Program-made: the position numbers and the translations under genes
In this document: piece by piece, positions 1-9,589 of the stretch
How positions within the stretch are numbered: position 1 is the stretch's first letter
How the letters are laid out: every line of letters begins with the position of its first letter
Notes under the pieces: model-generated
What the model was told of the DNA's origin: nothing
The model's input: only the letters and a program-made list of their open reading frames with translations
Database searches by the model: none
Assembly (NCBI GenBank): GCA_020186115.1
Contig: WSYJ01000002.1
Coordinates: 186,001-250,000, forward strand
Source of the DNA: Histomonas meleagridis
Lineage: Eukaryota; Parabasalia; Tritrichomonadida; Dientamoebidae
Reading direction: 5' to 3'
Length of the DNA stretch: 64,000 nt

Positions 1-644
1 AAGTTATTCCTTTTCGATATAAATAAAAATTTTACATTCACTTTACTGACCTATCGTTTTTGAAAACACTGTATGTTGTCAAGACCAAATAAATGTGAAG
101 TGATATGAATTTATATTAAATGATTAAATAATAAAATTAACGTACATTTTTATCACTACACTAAAGTATTTTACCTGTCTTTCTCGATGAATATAAAAAG
201 TATTTAATATAAGAATACTCATTCTACCATTAAAACACATATCTTTGTCTATTTTTTTCATGTCACATTTACTGTTTAGTAAACGTGGTTAATATTAGAA
301 ATATGAAGAGTTCAGTTTTTTAGTTAATTTTGATGAGTAATAAATATATTAACATGGTAAATAAAATAAATATTTAATATAATATATCTCGAATTCATGT
401 TAAAATAATCAGAAAAATATTGAAAAGAATATGAGATAATGCAAAAATTAAAAAATAAATTATTTTTTCTTCTGTAAAAATAAAACAGTCGAAATATTCT
501 AAAAATGTAAATTCATACTATCTTAGAGATGGGCTTTTGTTAATAGTATTTTTGTGAAAAATCGATCGAGGGAAAATTTTTGATTGCACCTCTCATGTAG
601 GCTTATGATAATTCTGAATTAAAAACTTTGATAGGTTTATAATG
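1..644. other. AT-rich flank without a recognisable gene
   Basis: I see no supportable gene on either strand. The stretch is AT-rich with many short stops. It is the outer flank of the inverted-repeat element that begins near 645, where base composition switches abruptly to GC-rich. Confidence 0.6.
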
Positions 645-793
645 CGGTCGGGACCCTAAGGGACCCGGGCCCATATAGTCCTCGGGATTGGACCCGACCT
701 TTCCTTTTAACATAGGGGGCTGGAGGCCTCCTGGATTCCTTCGGGTTCCCAGGCTGCTGAAGAGCCCTAAGTAGGCTTGCTTCGCTTGCTACG
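645..793 (+). repeat. Left terminal inverted repeat of the Rep/Cap element
   Basis: This GC-rich block shares, in order and inverted, several blocks with 6240-6342: AGTCCTCGGGATTGG, CCGACCTTTT, TAGGGGG, GAAGAGCCCT and CCTAAGTAGGCT followed by GCTTCGCT. It is longer than the right copy because of an extra self-complementary insert around 720-752 (GGAGGCCTCC and flanks). The outer GGTCGGG/CCCGACC at 646-698 can also pair with itself. Composition contrasts sharply with the AT-rich surroundings. Confidence 0.7.
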
Positions 794-1023
794 AGAATAA
801 TAATAATCTTTGTGAGCCATACAATTCGTTTGAAAAATTGAATGCATATTCAAAATTTAATTAACGATTAACTTTTTGATAGCACCGGTAGCAGATAGCA
901 CTTTTCATGTAAATCTATTCAAAAACCTCGTATAATCAGCACAAATCGTCCCTAAACTATATTTAAAAATCAAGTAGTCAAAAAGCGACGGTTATCGTTT
1001 GGTCGCATGGCAAACTTATTCCA

Positions 1024-1640
1024 ATGGACCAATGGTCAGTATTCTTAATTTTAAAATGTCACTTCATCACTTCACTCTATATGAATACAGACTTCTATTC
1101 TGTTACAAAACTTGGGGATTATCTCAAAGAGAAAGATTCAGATGCTACAGCAGTAGCTTTATTTTTCGAACCCAAGGATGACAAATTAGACAATTCTAAC
1201 AATTTTGTAATTAAACCAATAGGAATGATAATCAAACACGAAAATTTTCAGAATATTTATTATCTTCATAGAGAGTTAATGGTATTCTTTAATAAAATAT
1301 CAAAATATCAATACCAATCACTGAAAACAAAATGCCATTACTTACTAATAATATTCATTATTTAGAGATCCATTTAATACAATTAGAAAGTAATTTTGGA
1401 AGGCGGTATCAAGCATTTATCTATAAGTCCAAGAATGATGAAGTTAACAATATTCTAATCTCCCATAAAATACCTGATACCCATGAATTCGAATCAGTAT
1501 TCGATGTCAATTCTATCAATTCCTATAGATCACCCAATGACATCACACATAACGATACGATTAAGTCAATTTATGTTACTAATGTTTTTTCTTCATTATG
1601 GACGGTAGGACAAATAGTTAGAGATTTAAATGAACGATAA
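1024..1640 (+). pseudogene. Frameshifted ORF of unknown function in the element's left arm
   Basis: Two overlapping open stretches in different frames, 1024-1365 and 1332-1640, look like one gene of about 200 codons broken by a frameshift near 1330-1365. The second part is hydrophilic and protein-like in composition. I recognise no domain. It lies inside the inverted repeats and reads toward the perfect palindrome at 1899-1987. It could be a decayed cargo gene of an older mobile element. The 999-1181 ORF in a third frame is probably noise. Confidence 0.35.
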
Positions 1641-1898
1641 AATAAACGCTTATTTTTTATATTTTTTTTTCATAACGTGTCACATATATTTTGCTATTTT
1701 GTTTTAAAGCTGAAAATGCGATTGGTTTCTCAGATATAATTGCATTTGAAAATGATAAACTTCTTTGTTTATCTATATCTTCATAAATTTGTAATTTCAG
1801 AAATATTTAATTTATTTGTGTTGTAATTAATTTCAATAACTTCAGGTTTATAATTCGACATTTATAGAAATTATTTAGATTTTGTATAATCACCACGA

Positions 1899-1987
1899 TG
1901 AATTTTTAAAATGAAGACTTGTCAATAGAACCGGGGTGTCCGCAGGACACCCCGGTTCTATTGACAAGTCTTCATTTTAAAAATTCA
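1899..1987. repeat. Perfect palindrome, 43-bp arms with 3-nt loop
   Basis: Arms 1899-1941 and 1945-1987 are exact reverse complements, checked base by base, with loop GCA at 1942-1944. The core is GC-rich (ACCGGGGTGTCC), the outer part AT-rich. It lies between a broken + strand ORF ending at 1640 and a broken - strand ORF ending at 2044, that is, between convergent reading directions. Perfect palindromes of this size are unstable and normally diverge, so this one is young or maintained. A bidirectional transcript-end hairpin, a replication or recombination hairpin, or the scar of an inverted duplication are all possible. Confidence 0.9.
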
Positions 1988-2043
1988 AAACATTATATGA
2001 ATAATTTTATTTATTTCTATTGACCAACTAACGCTTATACTAC

Positions 2044-2265
2044 CTATTCTATAACAGGTGAGAATTTATCAGCTATTTTAATTTCTTTTGCAATAGCACC
2101 AGCATGATCAGGTAAATTTTCAATTCCAGGTATTTTACAGACAGTACTTACTACAGGCTTTGCTACTTTATTCCATACATTACCGATAAATCTTCCAACT
2201 GATTTGATAATTTTATCTCTGATTCAGGCACCTGCTTTTTTAAAACCATTTTTAATTTTGTTCCA
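2044..2265 (-). pseudogene. Remnant of a small basic protein, interrupted by a stop
   Basis: On the minus strand an open stretch ends at TAG (2044-2046) and is interrupted by an in-frame TGA at 2224-2226. The downstream part is rich in Lys, Val, Ile and Gly, with an amphipathic look, and has no start codon of its own. Small basic amphipathic proteins occur among minor structural proteins of DNA viruses and Maverick-type elements, but this is only a resemblance in composition. I name no function. Confidence 0.25.
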
Positions 2266-2429
2266 TTAACCCCACTACTGTACTAATAAAACATGATCAG
2301 CTCATATTATATGATAATTAATTGGGATTAAAATTTTGCCAAAATGGTGTCAACACGTCAAAAAGGCGTCAACGCTTGGAAAATGCAGTGAATTGGTATA
2401 TTGACTTAATAAAAAATAACTCATCTGTG

Positions 2430-2890
2430 TCAATTCTCATTTATATGTATATATTATCACTTATATTGTTAATACCACTTGTATGTGTTTATTTTCACAT
2501 GTGTGTGTTAATTCTCACTTATCTGTGTTAATTTTCACTTATCTATATGTATTCTCACTTGTATGTATTATTCTCAATTTTTTTGTTTATCGTCACTTCT
2601 CTGTATTTTCTTATACGTATTTTTATTTATTCTGACTTATATATATATATATTCTCACTCTTATCTGTGGTAATTTTCACTTTTTGCCGTTTATTCTTAC
2701 TTATGGGTGCTTATTGTTACTATTTATTTGTTCTCGCTTACATATGTTATTTCTCATTTATACTTGTTAATTCTAATTTATGCATATTAATATTAATTTA
2801 TATATGTTAATTCTCATTCATTGAATTTATATTACTTTGTCTATATTATTCTCACCTTCACTTGTCTGCGTTTATTCTTTAATGTGCTTG
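2430..2890. repeat. Degenerate TTCTCACTTATNTGTGTTAA minisatellite
   Basis: About twenty imperfect copies of a roughly 20-25 bp unit related to TTCTCACTTATCTGTGTTAA run head to tail. Open frames across it (2322-2531, 2547-2810) encode only Leu/Ile/Tyr/Phe-rich sequence imposed by the repeat and are not genes. It separates the broken left-arm ORFs from the intact Rep. Confidence 0.7.
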
Positions 2891-3194
2891 TTTATTTTGA
2901 AATGAATACATTAGATGTAGCCAACGTATAAATTTATTCATAAATTTATGATATGTTCATATCATCACACATGCGGATTAGTTCTCATTAATATGAATTT
3001 ATTTTTGGGCAAATATATCCTCAATAACTTATATTGATTGGTGTTTCAAATAACATGTCGTGACATTTTTATTTTTTCACAAAATAAATTGAACATTTGC
3101 AACGTGTCAGAATATTTTTCGATACGTATTCAAAAAATTGTATCGTATTATAGAATAAAATTTCAATTGAAAAAAAAACGTAAATAAATTAACA

Positions 3195-3201
3195 TCACTT
3201 A
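3195..3201 (+). promoter_or_regulatory. Host-type initiator (TCACTTA) upstream of Rep
   Basis: TCACTTA at 3195-3201 fits the parabasalid initiator pattern TCA followed by pyrimidine and T/A, and lies 6 bases before the Rep ATG. Identical TCACTTA precedes the ornithine cyclodeaminase-family ATG at 28568. Single matches to a short motif are weak, but the position is right. Confidence 0.4.
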
Positions 3202-3207
3202 CATTAA

Positions 3208-4191
3208 ATGGAACAACAACAAGTTATTGCAAATCAAACAGAAACAACAAGAGATCAAGCAAGAATTCAGAATCTAAACCCTAGAGCAAAACGTCGGGTT
3301 TATACATTAAATAATCCAACAGAAGAAGATGTAGAATTACTTAAAAACCCTCCACAAATTATTAAAGATTCATTACAATTCATGATATTTGGGAATGAAA
3401 GAGCACCAACGACAGGAACTATTCATTTACAGGGATACATTAATTTCAAAAACAGAGTTTACAAAAGAACAGTTGTGACATTGTTTGTACCATTATCAAG
3501 GGCATACTTAGAGCCTGCAAAAGGTACGGAAGAAGCAAACATTAATTATTGTAAAAAAGAAGGAGATTTTTGGATGACAGGTGAACCAATTAAAGCAAGA
3601 GGAGCAAACTTACGTCAAGGATCAGTATATATAGACTTATTAAATGATATAAAAAATGGAATGGGTTGGGATGAGATTGAAGAAAAGTACCCGGTTCAAG
3701 CTATGAATAAAATTACTGCTATTGAAAGAACTATGGAGCGTCATATACAAACACAAATAGGTGATATATGGAATGGAGAATTATCTGAAAAAAATATTTG
3801 GATTTGGGGTCCACCAGGTACAGGGAAATCCCGTTGGGCTTGGAATCAAGGTGGAACTGTTGCTAGTTATCCTAAAATGGTGAATAAATGGTGGGATGGA
3901 TATAGAGTAATAGATCATAAGTACGTAATTTGTGAAGATTGGCCAAAACAAGAAGGTTATGCATTAGTACAACAACTTAAACAATGGTCTGATCGTTTCC
4001 CATTTATCGCAAAAATTAAGGGAAAAAGTACAGTTATTAACCCTGGGAACTATAAATCAATAATTACCGCAAATTATAGTATAGAAGATACATTCATTGA
4101 CATAGATCAAGTGGACAAAGATGCCATTAAAAGAAGATTTAAGGAAATAGAAGTCAAAAGCCGAGAGGACGTTAATCTACTGAGAGTTTGA
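3208..4191 (+). CDS. rep: CRESS-DNA virus-type replication initiator protein (Rep)
   Basis: This 327-residue protein has the full two-domain Rep architecture. The N-terminal HUH endonuclease shows motif I VYTLNNP (31-37), motif II HLQGY (73-77) and motif III YCKK (114-117; Tyr114 is the expected nicking and joining tyrosine). The C-terminal superfamily 3 helicase shows Walker A GPPGTGKS (201-208), a Walker B-like VICEDW (240-245), motif C-like SIITANY (284-290) and the arginine-finger region AIKRRF (306-311). Known Reps nick the origin and drive rolling-circle replication of circular ssDNA. The frame is intact, of normal length, and no key residue is missing. A host-like initiator precedes it, and the stop runs straight into TAAATAAA, which suits host polyadenylation. 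Cap lies 1.2 kb downstream on the opposite strand. The general family is certain; the exact virus family cannot be set from sequence alone. Confidence 0.93.
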   Translation: MEQQQVIANQTETTRDQARIQNLNPRAKRRVYTLNNPTEEDVELLKNPPQIIKDSLQFMIFGNERAPTTGTIHLQGYINFKNRVYKRTVVTLFVPLSRAYLEPAKGTEEANINYCKKEGDFWMTGEPIKARGANLRQGSVYIDLLNDIKNGMGWDEIEEKYPVQAMNKITAIERTMERHIQTQIGDIWNGELSEKNIWIWGPPGTGKSRWAWNQGGTVASYPKMVNKWWDGYRVIDHKYVICEDWPKQEGYALVQQLKQWSDRFPFIAKIKGKSTVINPGNYKSIITANYSIEDTFIDIDQVDKDAIKRRFKEIEVKSREDVNLLRV

Positions 4192-4772
4192 TAAATAAAC
4201 AATTCAATTTTACCTGAATTTAGTTATTTAGGTACCAAAAATTGAATACTTATCGCCTAGGCAATGACGTAAAGTATTCAATTCCGAACTTTTTGTATCA
4301 ATATCTGGTCGATAGGCAATGCCCATTCTCTTTAGGTAATATGATCTCCTTGGAGCCTACTATCGTTCTGCAATACGATAGAACTAAAGAGAATAAGGAT
4401 TTTTTATTTTTATCGTCCTCAGATAACGGTCGAAATTGAATTAGAAAATTTTGACTAACCCCCACCCCTAGTACACTTTATCTACTTCTCTGGTCTCCGC
4501 CCTTATATAAAAAAGGGCTCCGCGAGGTCGGGCTACGGCCAGCTCGTGATAAATGCACTCATTCGCCATTAGGGCTCTCTTTGGGGGAGGGGGTACCTTG
4601 GTTTAAAGAAAAAGAAAAAAAGAAAAAAGTTCTCAATTGCCCATAGAGTGAACAAACTTTGTGTTATTATCACTTATGTGCTGAGTCGAAAAGAAAAAAA
4701 CAAAATTAATCAGAAAAACCGATAGGAAAAAGAAATTATCTTAAAATCAATTGAATGGTTTACATTTTACGA
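4192..4772. other. Hairpin-rich region between the convergent Rep and ORF3 ends
   Basis: No gene: the open frame 4242-4439 starts at TTG and only reflects the inverted repeats. Structures seen: (1) a perfect 12-bp stem AATTGAATACTT/AAGTATTCAATT, 4240-4251 with 4272-4283, loop 20 nt; (2) a three-way fold at 4325-4394, listed separately; (3) a GC-rich block at 4495-4600 containing GCCCTTATATAAAAAAGGGC and AGGTCGGG, echoing the terminal repeats. GGCAATG occurs twice, near 4260 and 4316, and might be an iteron-like pair. A purine-rich AAAGAAAAAG tract follows. Confidence 0.6.
4325..4394. repeat. T-shaped inverted repeat: 11-bp stem enclosing two small hairpins
   Basis: The outer stem ATTCTCTTTAG/CTAAAGAGAAT pairs 4325-4335 with 4384-4394. 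Inside are CTCC-TT-GGAG (4346-4355), which can be extended by AGG/CCT, and CTATCGT/ACGATAG (4360-4366 with 4375-4381, loop 8 nt). The result is a three-way junction, similar in layout to parvoviral terminal hairpins. On the minus strand the loop region contains CATATTACC, close to but not matching the CRESS nonanucleotide NANTATTAC. It could be a replication origin, a Rep-binding structure or an RNA 3'-end structure. Confidence 0.6.
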
Positions 4773-5405
4773 TTAAAAATTAAATGAATAATTAGAATTA
4801 GGAACAATTAAAACACTGGGTGCAGATACTTCAAAATTGGTTTCACGAATATAAAATACAAGATAATTATTAGATGTAAAAAAACCAACTGTACGATTAT
4901 TAACTGATGGAAAAGTAGTACCAAAATCATATAAATAATAATAATAAGTACCTGAACTAGAAATAGATGATTGATGTAAATAATTGACATATATCTCAGT
5001 ATATTCAGAATTGGGTTGATTAGGTTCAATTTGAATAATAACATAATAATGTGTTGGATCTATTGTCTGATTTAAATTAGTGATATAAGTAAATTGTGAT
5101 AATGGAATAAAACCAGGAATATCTGAAATAGATATAAAAGATATTGGTATAATAACCTTAATAGTAGATCCAATTTCATAAGCAATTCTTTTAGTACTAG
5201 AACCACCAGGATAATTAACAATGGTATCTTGAATAGTATAATCAGGAATCCTACCATTGTTCTTAAATACTTCATAAGCACGATCTAAATCATATTTAGT
5301 AAGAGGTGGATTAATAGGAGGTACCAACTTACGTTGTATAACACGTCCCTTGTTACGTGAATAATAAGATTCACTAATAGGTCCAATACGATGTGGATCA
5401 AACAT
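4773..5405 (-). CDS. Unknown protein of the Rep/Cap element (ORF3)
   Basis: This intact 210-residue ORF lies 26 bp downstream of Cap on the same strand. The N-terminal ~60 residues are basic and proline-rich (for example RKLVPPINPPL); the rest is rich in Tyr, Ser, Ile, Val and Asn with alternating hydrophobic residues, suggesting a beta-rich fold. I see no signal peptide, no transmembrane segment and no enzyme motif. Position beside Cap and a beta-rich composition make a second structural or host-interaction protein plausible, but that is inference. The stop is followed by TAAA a few bases downstream. The overlapping frames at 4808 and 5072 are shadows. Confidence 0.7.
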   Translation of the reverse strand: MFDPHRIGPISESYYSRNKGRVIQRKLVPPINPPLTKYDLDRAYEVFKNNGRIPDYTIQDTIVNYPGGSSTKRIAYEIGSTIKVIIPISFISISDIPGFIPLSQFTYITNLNQTIDPTHYYVIIQIEPNQPNSEYTEIYVNYLHQSSISSSGTYYYYLYDFGTTFPSVNNRTVGFFTSNNYLVFYIRETNFEVSAPSVLIVPNSNYSFNF

Positions 5406-5431
5406 AAAAATAACAGTGGGAAAATTTTTTA

Positions 5432-5944
5432 TTAATAAGTAATAGCATAATTCAATTGAACCCCTAAGAACTTATCGGTGATTTCAGTACCAGGAATGGA
5501 TACTTTTAAACATAAAACAATACAATCACCTGAATTCAAATTACGTGCTAACCTAGTACGAAATACTTGAGTCTGTTGAGCATTAGGGGTAAGGTACCCT
5601 GACATTATAACATTTTGATTGGGTTCATATAATGAAACAGGAGCAGCAGGGGTACCAAGTGACATAGATTGGGGAAGAGTACCATCTGGAACATATACTA
5701 GAGCCCATAATAAAGGAATATCAACATCTGTAATCATTTTTAAAGTAAAATTCTTTACTTTACGCATACCTTGAGTAGCAACAGCAGTAATTAGGGTGGT
5801 ATTTACTTGATCACCTACGGAACCTTCACCGGAGCCTGTATTAAATGTAATGTTTCCGGAACAATTATAAGTCTCATTAGAATACTTTACAGTCTTTAAT
5901 GGACGTCCACGTGAATAACTACGTCTACGTAATCTACGAGGCAT
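5432..5944 (-). CDS. cap: CRESS-DNA virus-like capsid protein (Cap)
   Basis: This 170-residue protein opens with an arginine-rich tail (RRLRRRSYSRGR, residues 3-14), the typical DNA-binding and nuclear-targeting N terminus of circovirus-like capsids. The remainder is beta-rich, with a segment of the type found in small CRESS capsids: VYVPDG, then LYEPNQ, then ARNLNSGD, near residues 83-140. This fits a single jelly-roll capsid protein. The length is at the short end for the group, but the frame is intact. The stop is TAATAAA, suiting host polyadenylation. It faces away from the right inverted repeat and runs toward Rep. GTGGGA lies 22-27 bp upstream of the start and is shared with ORF3. Confidence in the family rests on the tail, those motifs and the Rep partner. 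Confidence 0.82.
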   Translation of the reverse strand: MPRRLRRRSYSRGRPLKTVKYSNETYNCSGNITFNTGSGEGSVGDQVNTTLITAVATQGMRKVKNFTLKMITDVDIPLLWALVYVPDGTLPQSMSLGTPAAPVSLYEPNQNVIMSGYLTPNAQQTQVFRTRLARNLNSGDCIVLCLKVSIPGTEITDKFLGVQLNYAITY

Positions 5945-6239
5945 AACAATAAAAAATTTAATGCTGTGGGAGATTCATTAATTGAGGGTGAATTAAATAA
6001 GAAGGAACATCCTTACAACGACGATCATAACGGATGGCACCTATCGAAATGATTGGGAGAACAATAACCCAATTCTCAACCAACTGAGGTTTCTCCTTAA
6101 TAAAACCTTTAAGAAGTCCAACATTACTAAAATAAATGGTTTTAACAAAAATTATGAATTAAAAATCAAAAATTCCATCAATTATTTTTGATTATAATAT
6201 GTTATATGACTGACGACGATCAAAAATTCTGTGTGTATG
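5945..6239. promoter_or_regulatory. Cap upstream region with two stem-loops
   Basis: This stretch between the Cap start and the right inverted repeat has no gene. ATTGGG/CCCAAT (6052-6057 with 6068-6073) encloses a 10-nt loop. AATCAAAAAT/ATTTTTGATT (6164-6173 with 6184-6193) is a perfect 10-bp stem with the 10-nt loop TCCATCAATT, a geometry like CRESS origins but without NANTATTAC. ATCAAAAATTC recurs at about 6220 without its partner. Confidence 0.5.
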
Positions 6240-6342
6240 TAGAGCGAGCGAAGCGAGCCTACTTAGGTGGCTAAAGGGCTCTTCAACCCCCTAAGTTCAA
6301 AAAAAAGGTCGGAACCAATCCCGAGGACTCTAAGGGACCAAC
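6240..6342 (-). repeat. Right terminal inverted repeat of the Rep/Cap element
   Basis: Read on the minus strand it matches 645-793 block by block, with several substitutions and without the left copy's palindromic insert. The innermost block is AGCGAGCGAAGCGAGCC and the outermost CCTCGGGATTGG followed by CCGACC on the minus strand. It ends only about 40 bp before the ATG at 6384. Confidence 0.7.
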
Positions 6343-6383
6343 TTTTTTAAGACATGTGATGTGATATAAAAACTGTCAAAGAA

Positions 6384-7373
6384 ATGCAAAAGAAAGAGTT
6401 CGATCTTCATAAATTTATAACTGATTTCATAAAAGAATCAGCTCAAATAAGCAAGATTGGTGGCTTAATTAAATTTGCACAAAAAAATGCCTCAAAAATT
6501 AAATTTGATATAAAAATAGATTCATTAAGCATTGCTCAGAAAGCTGCTTTACTAATGATTCTACCGTTTGAATTATCTAAAAGGATTGTCGAAATTGGTG
6601 TTGAAGTTCTTCAAGTATTTGTTGAATGTCCAAATATTATTAAAACATCAATAGCAATGCGAGTTATAAGAGCAGCAGCATTATCAAAAACACTACAGAG
6701 GTTGTACGAAACTAATTTAATACAACAATTGTATCAAAAAAATAAGACAGTATTCAACTTGCCAATGCTTTATTTGGCAGCACAATCAAAACGACCTGAT
6801 TCAACACTGCATCCAACAATTTCCATGTCCACTAGAAACGATGTTTTGCAGTATTATTACAGCGGAATCAATCAGATGAATTTAAAAAATTTTGAAGATG
6901 CAAACATAGATTTCGCCAAAGCGCTTACACTCGCTAAGGCTTTAGAGTTTGATGAAATCATTCGCTCAATTATCGATAAGTTATCTTTAAGTTCGTTCTT
7001 AAGTCACACGCAACGTGACGTTTTCTTGAAAAGGATTCCCATTTATTTAAAGTTGGATGGGCCTTATGAGAAAATATGGGATATAAATTCTGAAATAGAT
7101 CGTTATGATTCTTTTATGAACTCTTTTTCATATGAAATCTCACGCGAAAGAACAAGGAGGCTTATCATTGACCTTGCGTTGACAACATCACGAATTAATA
7201 TTGATCATTTCGTTGAATTGTGCGGTCCAGTTGATGAAGCTAAAAAAATGACACAAAATGAAATTGAGATAATTGTAAACGACGATATGATTACTTTTAA
7301 CGGCCCCTTCCTTCTGGAGAAAGTTCAGAACAAAATCCAGGATCTGACAGTGATTCTTGATGTCCTTGAATAA
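6384..7373 (+). CDS. CSN3: COP9 signalosome subunit 3-like protein (PCI domain)
   Basis: This 329-residue, largely helical protein shows the CSN3 signature layout. A central LQYYYSGINQMNLKNFEDA, about residues 154-172, matches the YYYYGG-(x)-LKNFE region of CSN3. The C-terminal PCI/winged-helix segment has the normal ending (DMITFNGP, then a final helix). In other eukaryotes CSN3 is a scaffold subunit of the complex that removes NEDD8 from cullins. It is shorter than metazoan CSN3 (about 420), missing part of the N-terminal helical repeats. The CRESS element ends about 40 bp upstream, so its promoter region is mostly or wholly element DNA. The stop runs into TAAATAAA. A Rpn3 or eIF3-type PCI protein is the main alternative. 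Confidence 0.6.
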   Translation: MQKKEFDLHKFITDFIKESAQISKIGGLIKFAQKNASKIKFDIKIDSLSIAQKAALLMILPFELSKRIVEIGVEVLQVFVECPNIIKTSIAMRVIRAAALSKTLQRLYETNLIQQLYQKNKTVFNLPMLYLAAQSKRPDSTLHPTISMSTRNDVLQYYYSGINQMNLKNFEDANIDFAKALTLAKALEFDEIIRSIIDKLSLSSFLSHTQRDVFLKRIPIYLKLDGPYEKIWDINSEIDRYDSFMNSFSYEISRERTRRLIIDLALTTSRINIDHFVELCGPVDEAKKMTQNEIEIIVNDDMITFNGPFLLEKVQNKIQDLTVILDVLE

Positions 7374-8059
7374 ATAAATTTTAAACATAATTACTTATTT
7401 AAGTAGATGAAATAATGTTTGCTAATTCTAAATTTATATTAAATCAATGCAGTATTAATATTTCATATTTTATGATGCAATAATTTGTATTGAAAATGTT
7501 CAAAAAATTCATGAAATTTAAATTCATGAAATATTTAAAAACTAACTTAAGTACTATTCTTCGTCTATTAGTACTTTCATTTAAATTTGACCTCAAATCG
7601 CTTGGTTATGTAAGATATATTTCTAATTGGAAATAAAGATCTTTTTTTTTTTCAACCTATGATTTATTTTTCTCAACAACTTGAAGTACTATTGTACTTC
7701 TGGGATACTTGTAATGAATAAATATGAAACAATATCATGAAATTGTATTTGCTTGTTGGAAGCAATCGTTTAAAGAATACCGTTATCAACAGCATACAAT
7801 TTGATGCAATTGGATAAGTCTTTTGCATTTTCGGCAATAAATATCTCTTAGTACAAGGATCATCACATATTTTCCCTTGGGGAATTCTTCAAATTATACG
7901 GTTTTTCATGAAGTATACAGATTCCCTGTGTCTTTATTTAAGGAAAAATTAATCAAATTTTAAAAATAATTTTTTCGAAAATTTTCTTACCCTTCAATAG
8001 ATATTCAAATAAAATTTTAATATTATCTTTATTATCATGGGAAAAATAATATATTAATT
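7374..8059. other. Intergenic, no gene seen
   Basis: AT-rich spacer between the convergent CSN3-like and BTB/F5/8C genes. There is only a small inverted repeat, GAAGTACTATTGTACTTC (7683-7700). No coding stretch is supportable on either strand. Confidence 0.6.
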
Positions 8060-9589
8060 TTATCCTTCAGGAGTGATGAGCTCGCCAAACAATTCAAAGT
8101 TCGACAGAGCCAACACGTTATCTCCTCTTGAGTTTTTACCAGTCATTCTTAATCTTATGCATTTATATGGCATTTCAACGTTATCACAAGGAAATGTTTG
8201 GTATTTATTTGGCCCATTCAACACGTTAATAGATCTTATGTCGATTACGTCCCAAACATTTGAATCATTTGATCCTTCAATGACCCACGATTTTATATGG
8301 CATGTCTTAAACTTATGTGTTTTAATGGTATAATGTGAGATTAAAACCCTTTTATCAATAAAATCAAATTTTATCCATTGATCAGGTTGATCTTCAGTGA
8401 ACCAAATATCTTTCCATTCAATATTAGCAACTTGGAAACAGTTATTGTGGTCACTTGTTGATGATGTTATCTTAATGATTCCTTTTTCATGAACATTTCC
8501 ATTAACTTTTTGTGACAAATATGAAATTATTCCATTAAGTGATCGACCAACAAATGGTATATATGTCTTGGAAATTGTATGTGGCTCAAAACGCATAGAA
8601 TTTATTTCATTCTTAAGTTGAACATTTTGTGATTGAAGTATTTGAATTTCTGATCGAATTTCTTCAATAGACTTATCATATGTTATAGACTTGCGTGTTA
8701 GTCCGTTAACAATTTTATTAGTCTTACGAAGATCCTTGTGTGCTTTTTCTTCAAATTCTTTTAGCTTGTCAACAAATGCCGATTGGATCTTTTCTTTGGA
8801 GAAGCTTTCATTCAAATCGGTTTGAACGGGCATTGAATTGTGTAAAGCTTCTAATTTATCAACTTTTTCAATTAGTTTACGAATAATTGAATCCATTGAA
8901 TCAACTTTTTGTATGAGATCTTCGTTTTCTTTAGTAAGAGAAAGTGAAAATTCAATGAATTTCTGAGGGTTAATATATTTTTGAATGGATGGAATGCCAA
9001 AAAGTTTCCTTGCTTCAGTTGAAGTAAGTTGTTGTAAATCAATGAAATTTGTTAACATTAATGCATCGTCACCTCTTTTTTCTTCAAGTTTAAGAATAAA
9101 ATCTAATAAGAGATGATAATTAATATTACCTTTAGCACTAATGATAATTCTCTTAATGGAATCTAATGGAAAACACATGAAAGATGGCAAAAAAATTACA
9201 TCTGATAAATGCTCTGATAATACTTTTTCTAATTTTTCATCAATACTTGTTTCATCTTCTGTAATTTTTTGACAGAGTTTTTCATAATTTGGAAAATGAG
9301 AAATCGCTTTAAGAATTGAATCTTCAACAGTTGATGTTTCCCATTCTTCTGACAGCTGTAAAAGCTGAATAAAATTATCCTCTGTCACATCAAACTCTTC
9401 GCCTTGAGCACCCTTTAAAAAATTTGAAAAAGTCGAGAATAAAACATTTCCATTAATTGTTAAACAATTTGAGTTTTTGAACTCAGGTAATTGTCTAAAC
9501 TTGTTCGAGTACAAAGCAAATCTAAACCTAGATATAATTATTTCCTGTGAATTATAGTAAATTGCAAATTTGTCGATATTTTCTTCCAT
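8060..9589 (-). CDS. BTB-like and F5/8 type C (discoidin) domain protein
   Basis: This 509-residue protein has three parts. A BTB/POZ-like N terminus covers about 10-110, with a BACK-like helical stretch to ~210. A coiled-coil segment covers about 220-345, rich in Lys/Glu/Leu heptads. A C-terminal F5/8 type C beta-sandwich covers about 355-505, with QWIKFDF, a TIKTH strand and FELFGEL at the end. This combination is a large family in trichomonads, with unknown roles; BTB domains usually mediate dimerisation or cullin-3 binding, and intracellular F5/8C domains bind ligands. There is no signal peptide, so it should act in the cytoplasm or nucleus. The ATG is the first in frame. The + strand frame at 8073 is its shadow. 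Confidence 0.75.
   Translation of the reverse strand: MEENIDKFAIYYNSQEIIISRFRFALYSNKFRQLPEFKNSNCLTINGNVLFSTFSNFLKGAQGEEFDVTEDNFIQLLQLSEEWETSTVEDSILKAISHFPNYEKLCQKITEDETSIDEKLEKVLSEHLSDVIFLPSFMCFPLDSIKRIIISAKGNINYHLLLDFILKLEEKRGDDALMLTNFIDLQQLTSTEARKLFGIPSIQKYINPQKFIEFSLSLTKENEDLIQKVDSMDSIIRKLIEKVDKLEALHNSMPVQTDLNESFSKEKIQSAFVDKLKEFEEKAHKDLRKTNKIVNGLTRKSITYDKSIEEIRSEIQILQSQNVQLKNEINSMRFEPHTISKTYIPFVGRSLNGIISYLSQKVNGNVHEKGIIKITSSTSDHNNCFQVANIEWKDIWFTEDQPDQWIKFDFIDKRVLISHYTIKTHKFKTCHIKSWVIEGSNDSNVWDVIDIRSINVLNGPNKYQTFPCDNVEMPYKCIRLRMTGKNSRGDNVLALSNFELFGELITPEG

Follow-up and report, generated by a model that had tools for sequence, protein, structure and literature searches.

Likely endogenous kirkovirus-like elements in the genome of the parabasalid Histomonas meleagridis

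Analysis of a 64,000-nucleotide stretch of the Histomonas meleagridis genome (here named the window) revealed genes for Rep, Cap, and a third protein (ORF3) that very probably represent an endogenous viral element. By this reading, Histomonas or an ancestor would have been infected repeatedly by a kirkovirus-like ssDNA virus (CRESSV2-type), pieces of it would have been integrated, and the inverted repeat arms found on either side of the genes would be unrelated to it. The virus would have had a circular, ambisense genome of about 3.3 to 3.4 kb, with Rep in one direction and Cap, ORF3, and a fourth ORF in the opposite one. The original prediction had named the record of a trichomonad-infecting CRESS virus as one of two options, and this option is well supported by the many sites, their circular permutation, a 3368-base period, purifying selection on Cap, and metagenomic relatives of the proteins of all three genes.

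Rep is encoded on the plus strand (positions 3208 to 4191) in an open frame of 327 amino acids. It matched the Pfam families Viral_Rep (E = 1.2e-16) and RNA_helicase (E = 7.2e-8), the solved structure closest to it in sequence is 7lar (E = 1e-22), a chain annotated as ATP-dependent helicase Rep, and all six motifs that were sought are present. Pfam, 7lar, and motifs thus identify a rolling-circle endonuclease and an SF3 helicase domain of circovirus type, and the earlier description of an unbroken Rep with HUH and SF3 motifs holds. Cap (5432 to 5944; 170 amino acids) and ORF3 (4773 to 5405; 210 amino acids, with a conserved basic N terminus) are open frames on the minus strand, and ORF3 is intact as first described. 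Cap starts with MPRRLRRRSYSRGR, and therefore the Arg-rich stretch noted previously is its N terminus. No Pfam family was matched by Cap or ORF3 at E values up to 1, and a PHROGs search gave weak matches only (E = 0.18). ORF3 is perhaps a second structural protein.

The viral insert measures about 3.0 kb and extends from position 3151, give or take a few bases, to position 6146. It was placed using the ends of shared homology and a paralogous site on C86 (410312 to 410605), where sequence equivalent to window positions 2970 to ~3154 is joined directly to that of ~6143 to 6241, without virus; the flanks at 2970 to 3150 and 6147 to 6241 are common to both sites. Because the C86 site is a paralogue matching at 83 to 88%, the exact bases of the joint are uncertain, and no target-site duplication was seen by eye at the viral edges in comparison with it. 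After removal of C2 rows and of rows inside longer ones, 66 rows of homology were counted, 14 of which, on nine contigs, end exactly at 6146, while 15 start exactly at 4401; the stretch from 4401 to 6146 is a Cap/ORF3/ORF4 module (minus strand) common to many loci. Homology ends at 6146 inside the fourth ORF, which is left as a remnant of 62 codons plus stop (5958 to 6146, minus strand, with homology to other loci) and counts 114 amino acids from its first Met in C71. Other loci retain the first 52 codons of this ORF and also the intergenic stretch that precedes Rep, both of which the window lacks, so that the set does not appear to be complete.

Downstream of Rep lies a likely replication-origin hairpin (4320 to 4401), proposed from its fold and from comparable sequence at other loci, and the shared Cap/ORF3 module begins beside it. 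On its minus strand, the hairpin carries a NANTATTAC-like sequence that departs from the consensus at one letter. The viral part of the window was found to have no exact NANTATTAC, which occurs in 4 of 15 stretches from viral loci, three of these four being near copies.

Searches of the H. meleagridis assembly gave 44 matches for Rep, 24 for Cap, and 33 for ORF3. The copies have their genes in circularly permuted, broken, or tandem order; the window has Rep-ORF3-Cap, C111 has ORF3(1-67)-Cap-Rep, and C71 has Cap(1-63)-Rep-ORF3(62-210), in a layout with which 88 of 88 overlapping pairs were consistent. Terminal repeats common to all viral copies were not found. At the end of an array on C48, Cap starts are spaced 3368 bases apart, and this period and the permuted copies fit a circular genome of about 2.8 to 3.9 kb, a size deduced from integrated copies. 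Each of two 6.7-kb intervals in the array has Rep matches at two places and one Cap and one ORF3, and the array is therefore no clean tandem of whole genomes. Both this tandem array and the junctions described here are assembly-based. A number of viral matches are located at a contig end or close to one (C48, C64, C73, C116, C30, and C109), as might be expected if the assembler had joined a free virus of the culture to host contigs. Such contamination or misassembly is extremely improbable, however, since many copies lie deep in long contigs (that of the window ~189 kb into a contig of 316846 bases), stops or truncations break many of the Rep, Cap, and ORF3 copies, and shared viral stretches are about 4% to more than 30% apart in DNA, unlike one virus in one culture.

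Phylogenetic analysis placed the seven Histomonas Caps in one clade (SH-aLRT = 99), whereas the seven Histomonas Reps need at least four lineages and a single Histomonas clade was rejected (AU p = 2.2e-46); both trees are quick searches without bootstrap, the deep Rep branches are weak, and the Rep tree contained no Rep named as kirkovirus. A single Cap clade thus goes together with four or more Rep lineages, and the best reading would be viruses that exchange Rep modules. Comparison of Cap copies gave dN/dS values of 0.02 to 0.10 in 12 pairs among the window, C48, C74, and C111 (dS 0.10 to 0.67) and of 0.19 to 0.28 in 6 pairs with C118. Judged by these ratios, Cap is under strong purifying selection between copies, with a weaker constraint on ORF3 (0.20 to 0.88 in 21 pairs). 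The low Cap values and the open frames also speak for a domesticated set, in which Rep, Cap, or ORF3 would serve the host itself, e.g., as a defense against infection, and the selection on Cap would be exerted by the host. We consider this very improbable in view of the many copies with stops or truncations, the weaker constraint on ORF3, and the Histomonas Rep lineages whose metagenomic sisters stand nearer to them than do most other Histomonas Reps, which fits infection.

Under the preferred reading of repeated infection by kirkovirus-like viruses, Rep would nick the origin hairpin and replicate the circle, and recombination or template switching at the hairpin could exchange Rep-plus-origin modules. 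Linear or concatemeric viral DNA would then have been end-joined into chromosomal breaks, in the window within repeat DNA.

Alignment of inverted repeats confirmed a left arm at 667 to 824 (plus strand) and a right arm at 6202 to 6339 (minus strand), with a score of 92; 500 shuffles reached 35 at most, and random pairs of segments from the window (up to 1000) reached 75. Listed as two separate repeat pairs, the arms comprise one of 59 nt (81%) and one of 25 nt (92%). A fragment of a repeat family, here named X, covers 632 to 2275 (plus strand) according to multicopy matches and takes in the left arm with its hairpin region, and positions 6243 to 6324 in the right arm also match C50 beside an X copy. 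The original prediction of a repeat-bounded Rep/Cap set was correct in that genes and arms are real and the arms flank the genes, but the repeats do not bound one element. About 2.3 kb of nonviral DNA, partly multicopy repeat, separates the left arm from the viral part, and DNA searches of the genome with the arms found no second arm pair, nor any copy with both inverted ends; of the viral loci examined, C21 shows sequence resembling an arm on the single side read. Left-part and arm sequence is present at sites where Rep and Cap gave no match (C104, with left-arm family X, and C50), and such repeats were detected near only 9 of 39 Rep/Cap sites, window included, a count made after removal of 4 of 79 repeat rows (two window rows, low complexity on C54, and the virus-free C86 site). 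A mobile element whose inverted repeats at 645 to 6342 carry Rep and Cap as cargo and which moves as a whole would account for real arms flanking the genes, yet it is already largely refuted and highly improbable: gene order is permuted among the copies, their end points vary, and at C86 the immediate flanks stand together without virus or a visible target duplication. Arm and left-part sequence at sites lacking Rep/Cap, the majority of Rep/Cap sites with no such repeats detected close by, and the virus-free C86 site amount to much of what the original prediction had named as its own refutation. With no shared inverted ends, the reading as a TIR transposon was dropped, and the arms appear to be remains of a separate hairpin-ended repeat family rather than virus ends.

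At C36, C98, and C89, a DNA_pol_B_2 match is found about 6 to 6.5 kb away from X, each time with the same orientation relative to it, which may hint at a Maverick/Polinton-like element. The geometry differs at two of nine polymerase sites (C21 and C85), at four of nine no X is among the matches listed, no integrase match was found beside the polymerase sites of C36, C98, and C89, and X is known from incomplete copies. One integrase match, on C40, is some 0.5 kb away from a copy of X.

Two aligned direct junctions between virus and X start 0 and 8 bases from the X palindrome loop, and their viral sides differ (~4470 and ~5820). It is conceivable, if rather doubtful, that viral DNA was captured at the palindromic ends of X, either by Rep using the hairpin tip as a surrogate origin or by an extruded hairpin that breaks and catches viral DNA. 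If so, and given that Rep modules are exchanged next to the viral hairpin as well, the genome would preserve a record of how hairpins drove recombination between a CRESS virus and its neighbors.

The integrated sequence ties a CRESS group known from vertebrate feces and discussed as agents of pig diarrhea to a parabasalid host, a poultry parasite whose scattered, reshuffled viral copies are related to small circular DNA viruses of pig feces. If the relatives from pigs, cattle, and horses also infect gut trichomonads, the associations with disease will have to be reconsidered. With so many copies, Rep/Cap module exchange also becomes measurable within one host. A link between kirkoviruses and parabasalids is already in the literature: Kinsella (2022) reportedly predicted parabasalids as hosts of Kirkoviridae and backed this with endogenous elements. 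Among the papers listed from one open-licence literature collection, none reported CRESS elements in Histomonas or in another parabasalid. What looks new is the record of module exchange and the two junctions at the tip of the palindrome.

Relatives were found among metagenomic CRESS virus proteins for Rep, Cap, and ORF3 (P0097, P0169, and P0246, each listing one contig, of 3311 bases), and in a Po-Circo-like (kirkovirus/CRESSV2) virus, with whose capsid (P0218) the window Cap is 46% identical over 100% of the query. No kirkovirus-named Rep was among the 120 Rep matches listed, and scanning viral_contigs with Rep, Cap, and ORF3 yielded no confirmed relative. The Po-Circo-like strains 288_4 and 302_4, as described, share with the virus in the window the ambisense plan, a likely origin on the 3' flank of rep, and a pair of adjoining ORFs whose basic N termini are conserved (PMC8307498). 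The Histomonas virus, at a deduced ~3.3 to 3.4 kb, would also fall inside the genome size range of the proposed Kirkoviridae, 2833 to 3923 bp (PMC9290044). Unlike these viruses, the Histomonas copies sit in a parabasalid genome, and the window copy is without part of the fourth ORF and the intergenic region and has a nonanucleotide that is one letter off. Endogenous Naryaviridae, Nenyaviridae, and Vilyaviridae of Entamoeba and Giardia are likewise cases of Rep and Cap integration in gut protists, and some of them comprise whole genomes (PMC7493932). In contrast to those elements, the host here belongs to another group, and the Histomonas copies appear to exchange Rep modules around one Cap clade.

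The uninterrupted Rep, Cap and third open reading frame (ORF) of the original prediction were borne out: Rep (3208-4191, plus strand), ORF3 (4773-5405, minus strand) and Cap (5432-5944, minus strand) are all open frames. Rep carries Viral_Rep and RNA_helicase domains and resembles solved Rep chains in a comparison with known structures. Among the homologues listed, some are named by NCBI as Rep, replicase or Cap protein of Histomonas meleagridis. The window lies on contig C2 (186001-250000) of an assembly that comprises 43276120 bases in 121 contigs. The H. meleagridis genome paper gives 43 Mb and 28% GC, and in its available portion no discussion of viral insertions was found, with "viral" absent and "virus" occurring twice (PMC8529796).

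Six-frame searches of the genome revealed 44 Rep, 24 Cap and 33 ORF3 matches, which were grouped into 39 viral sites. The copies present their genes as a circle would if cut at differing points: the window reads Rep, ORF3, Cap; contig C111 reads ORF3(1-67), Cap, Rep; and contig C71 reads Cap(1-63), Rep, ORF3(62-210). Furthermore, an array of viral units with periods of 6.7 kb and 3.4 kb occupies the end of contig C48 (C48:953331-974130), with Cap starts 6724, 6727 and 3368 bases apart and 97.6 to 99.4% identity between pieces one period apart. The period of 3368 bases, which takes in Cap, ORF3 and Rep, is consistent with one genome length; in each of the two longer (6.7-kb) intervals, Rep is matched at two positions but Cap and ORF3 once each.

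Window positions 1-9500 were compared with other viral loci, yielding 66 homology rows. Homology ends exactly at 6146 in 14 rows (nine contigs) and begins exactly at 4401 in 15 (twelve contigs). Past 6146, the copies on C111, C71, C30, C53, C48 and C8 continue through the opening half of a fourth ORF and then intergenic sequence in the direction of Rep. The window lacks both; its remnant of this ORF (5958-6146) has 62 codons versus 114 amino acids from the first Met in C71. At C86:410312-410605, window sequence from 2970 to ~3154 is joined to ~6143-6241 (83% and 88% identity). Because this paralogous site is without virus, we place the viral insert at ~3151-6146. By eye, about three bases are shared at the C86 joint and a few may have been lost; no duplicated target was seen at the insert edges relative to this site. 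Single bases are uncertain since C86 is a paralogue.

The inverted repeats described around the gene set (667-824 and 6202-6339) are real. Their arms align with a score of 92, against maxima of 35 for shuffles and 75 for random pairs from the window; the latter shows that this AT-rich, repeat-bearing window by itself yields fairly high scores, with the arms still above. In an inverted-repeat listing they appear as two pairs, one of 59 nt (81%) and one of 25 nt (92%). A DNA search of the genome identified window 632-2275, which includes the left arm, as a fragment of a hairpin-ended repeat, family X, with at least 79 matches (40 of 97 candidates scored), 75 of them outside the window in 37 clusters. 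On C104 (stretch L087), the aligned part of the copy spans 1114 to 3035, with a palindrome at 1128-1204; a similar palindrome on C74 has 38 of 40 bases paired and a 3-base loop. The right arm has a match on C50 adjoining an X copy. X or arm sequence thus stands on C50 and C104 without any Rep, Cap or ORF3 match, which argues against these repeats as the ends of a Rep/Cap unit.

Within the X fragment, 1899-1987 is a perfect 43-nt inverted repeat with a 3-nt spacer. Degenerate units spaced ~20 nt form an array at 2415-2820, and C32 has similar sequence upstream of a Rep fragment. Past the window-shared part of X on C104, two open frames (L087:3071-3746) gave no Pfam family above the cut-off.

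Viral sites lie near X more often than expected at random: with the listed X clusters, 4 of 39 were within 3 kb (0.30 expected; Poisson p 2.5e-4) and 2 of 39 within 1.5 kb (0.20 expected; p 0.017). When the viral loci were scanned more sensitively, with no matched control, X was placed near nine of the 39, including the window. A shared clustering of all repeats in those regions could account for this proximity. In the two direct junctions between virus and X that were aligned, X begins at the palindrome loop on C21 and 8 bases past the loop on C10, and the viral sides differ (~4470 and ~5820). On C74 and C116, X is nearby, but other sequence separates it from the virus. An integrase-core (rve) match at C21:400853-401119 lies ~1 kb from a viral ORF3 (C21:399446-399886), and C106:18897-19110 (stretch L029), adjoining X and a Rep fragment, by eye resembles a Pif1-type helicase C terminus.

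Family X may be Polinton-like. At three of nine polymerase sites (C36, C98 and C89), a DNA_pol_B_2 match lies ~6-6.5 kb from X in the same relative orientation, with no integrase matches beside these polymerases. Two further sites (C21 and C85) have X near the polymerase but in a different geometry, and at the other four no X was found among the matches listed.

Phylogenies were computed as quick searches without bootstrap. The Rep tree (80 rows) held the window, six other stop-free Histomonas frames of the 44 matches and 73 of 120 listed homologues; the window Rep clustered with the database proteins P0002 and P0003. The starred branches require the Histomonas label to change four times or more, and a single Histomonas Rep clade was rejected (AU p 2.2e-46). 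The Cap tree (123 rows) combined the seven Histomonas Caps free of stops, out of 24 matches, with 116 of 120 listed homologues, and the seven formed one group (SH-aLRT 99). Together, the trees indicate a single capsid lineage combined with several Rep lineages.

Downstream of Rep, 4320-4405 folds as a hairpin, and similar sequence was seen by eye in other loci; the shared Cap/ORF3 module begins directly after it. The exact nonanucleotide NANTATTAC occurs on the minus strand in four of 15 stretches (C48 twice, C8 and C32, the first three being near copies). None was found within window 3151-6146, where the nonanucleotide is one letter off. Rep may travel together with its own origin, and recombination may occur at the nick site.

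For selection on Cap, dN/dS was computed for 21 pairs of the seven proteins. It was 0.02-0.10 in 12 pairs among the window, C48, C74 and C111 (dS 0.10-0.67) and 0.19-0.28 in six pairs involving C118; three pairs within C48 were uninformative. ORF3 gave 0.20-0.88 for seven stop-free copies of 33 matches, with one more full-length stop-free C48 copy excluded. The Cap values indicate that differences accumulated while the protein mattered, and are consistent with separate integrations from a replicating virus.

Kinsella 2022 reportedly predicted parabasalid hosts for Kirkoviridae, with endogenous elements as support. Should that study include Histomonas, the link to this host would not be new. 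It is cited in the accessible parts of PMC10193959 and PMC11281440. Kinsella 2020, as far as its available text goes, describes whole CRESS genomes in Entamoeba and links such viruses to Entamoeba and Giardia (PMC7493932). In the open-licence literature searched, no earlier account was found of Rep-module exchange, of the site without virus or of palindrome-tip junctions.

Rep has 466 relatives at E ≤0.001, the best outside this genome reaching 54% among the 120 of 466 listed. Cap has 1149, of which 120 were listed; among these, a Po-Circo-like virus capsid matches the window Cap with 46% over 100%. For ORF3 there are 11, including five that bear the Histomonas name or nearly match its own copies; the N terminus of ORF3 is kept in metagenomic relatives while the remainder is variable. 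Rep P0097, Cap P0169 and ORF3 P0246 are each listed with a single 3311-base contig, as are Cap P0133 and ORF3 P0244 with one of 2065 bases; judging by equal size alone, each set probably shares a contig. Po-Circo-like virus is assigned to the proposed Kirkoviridae in the available part of PMC9290044. The gene plan of the Histomonas copies agrees with that of its strains 288_4 and 302_4, where the rep end is close to the nonanucleotide and the N termini of ORF2 and ORF3 are conserved and basic (PMC8307498).
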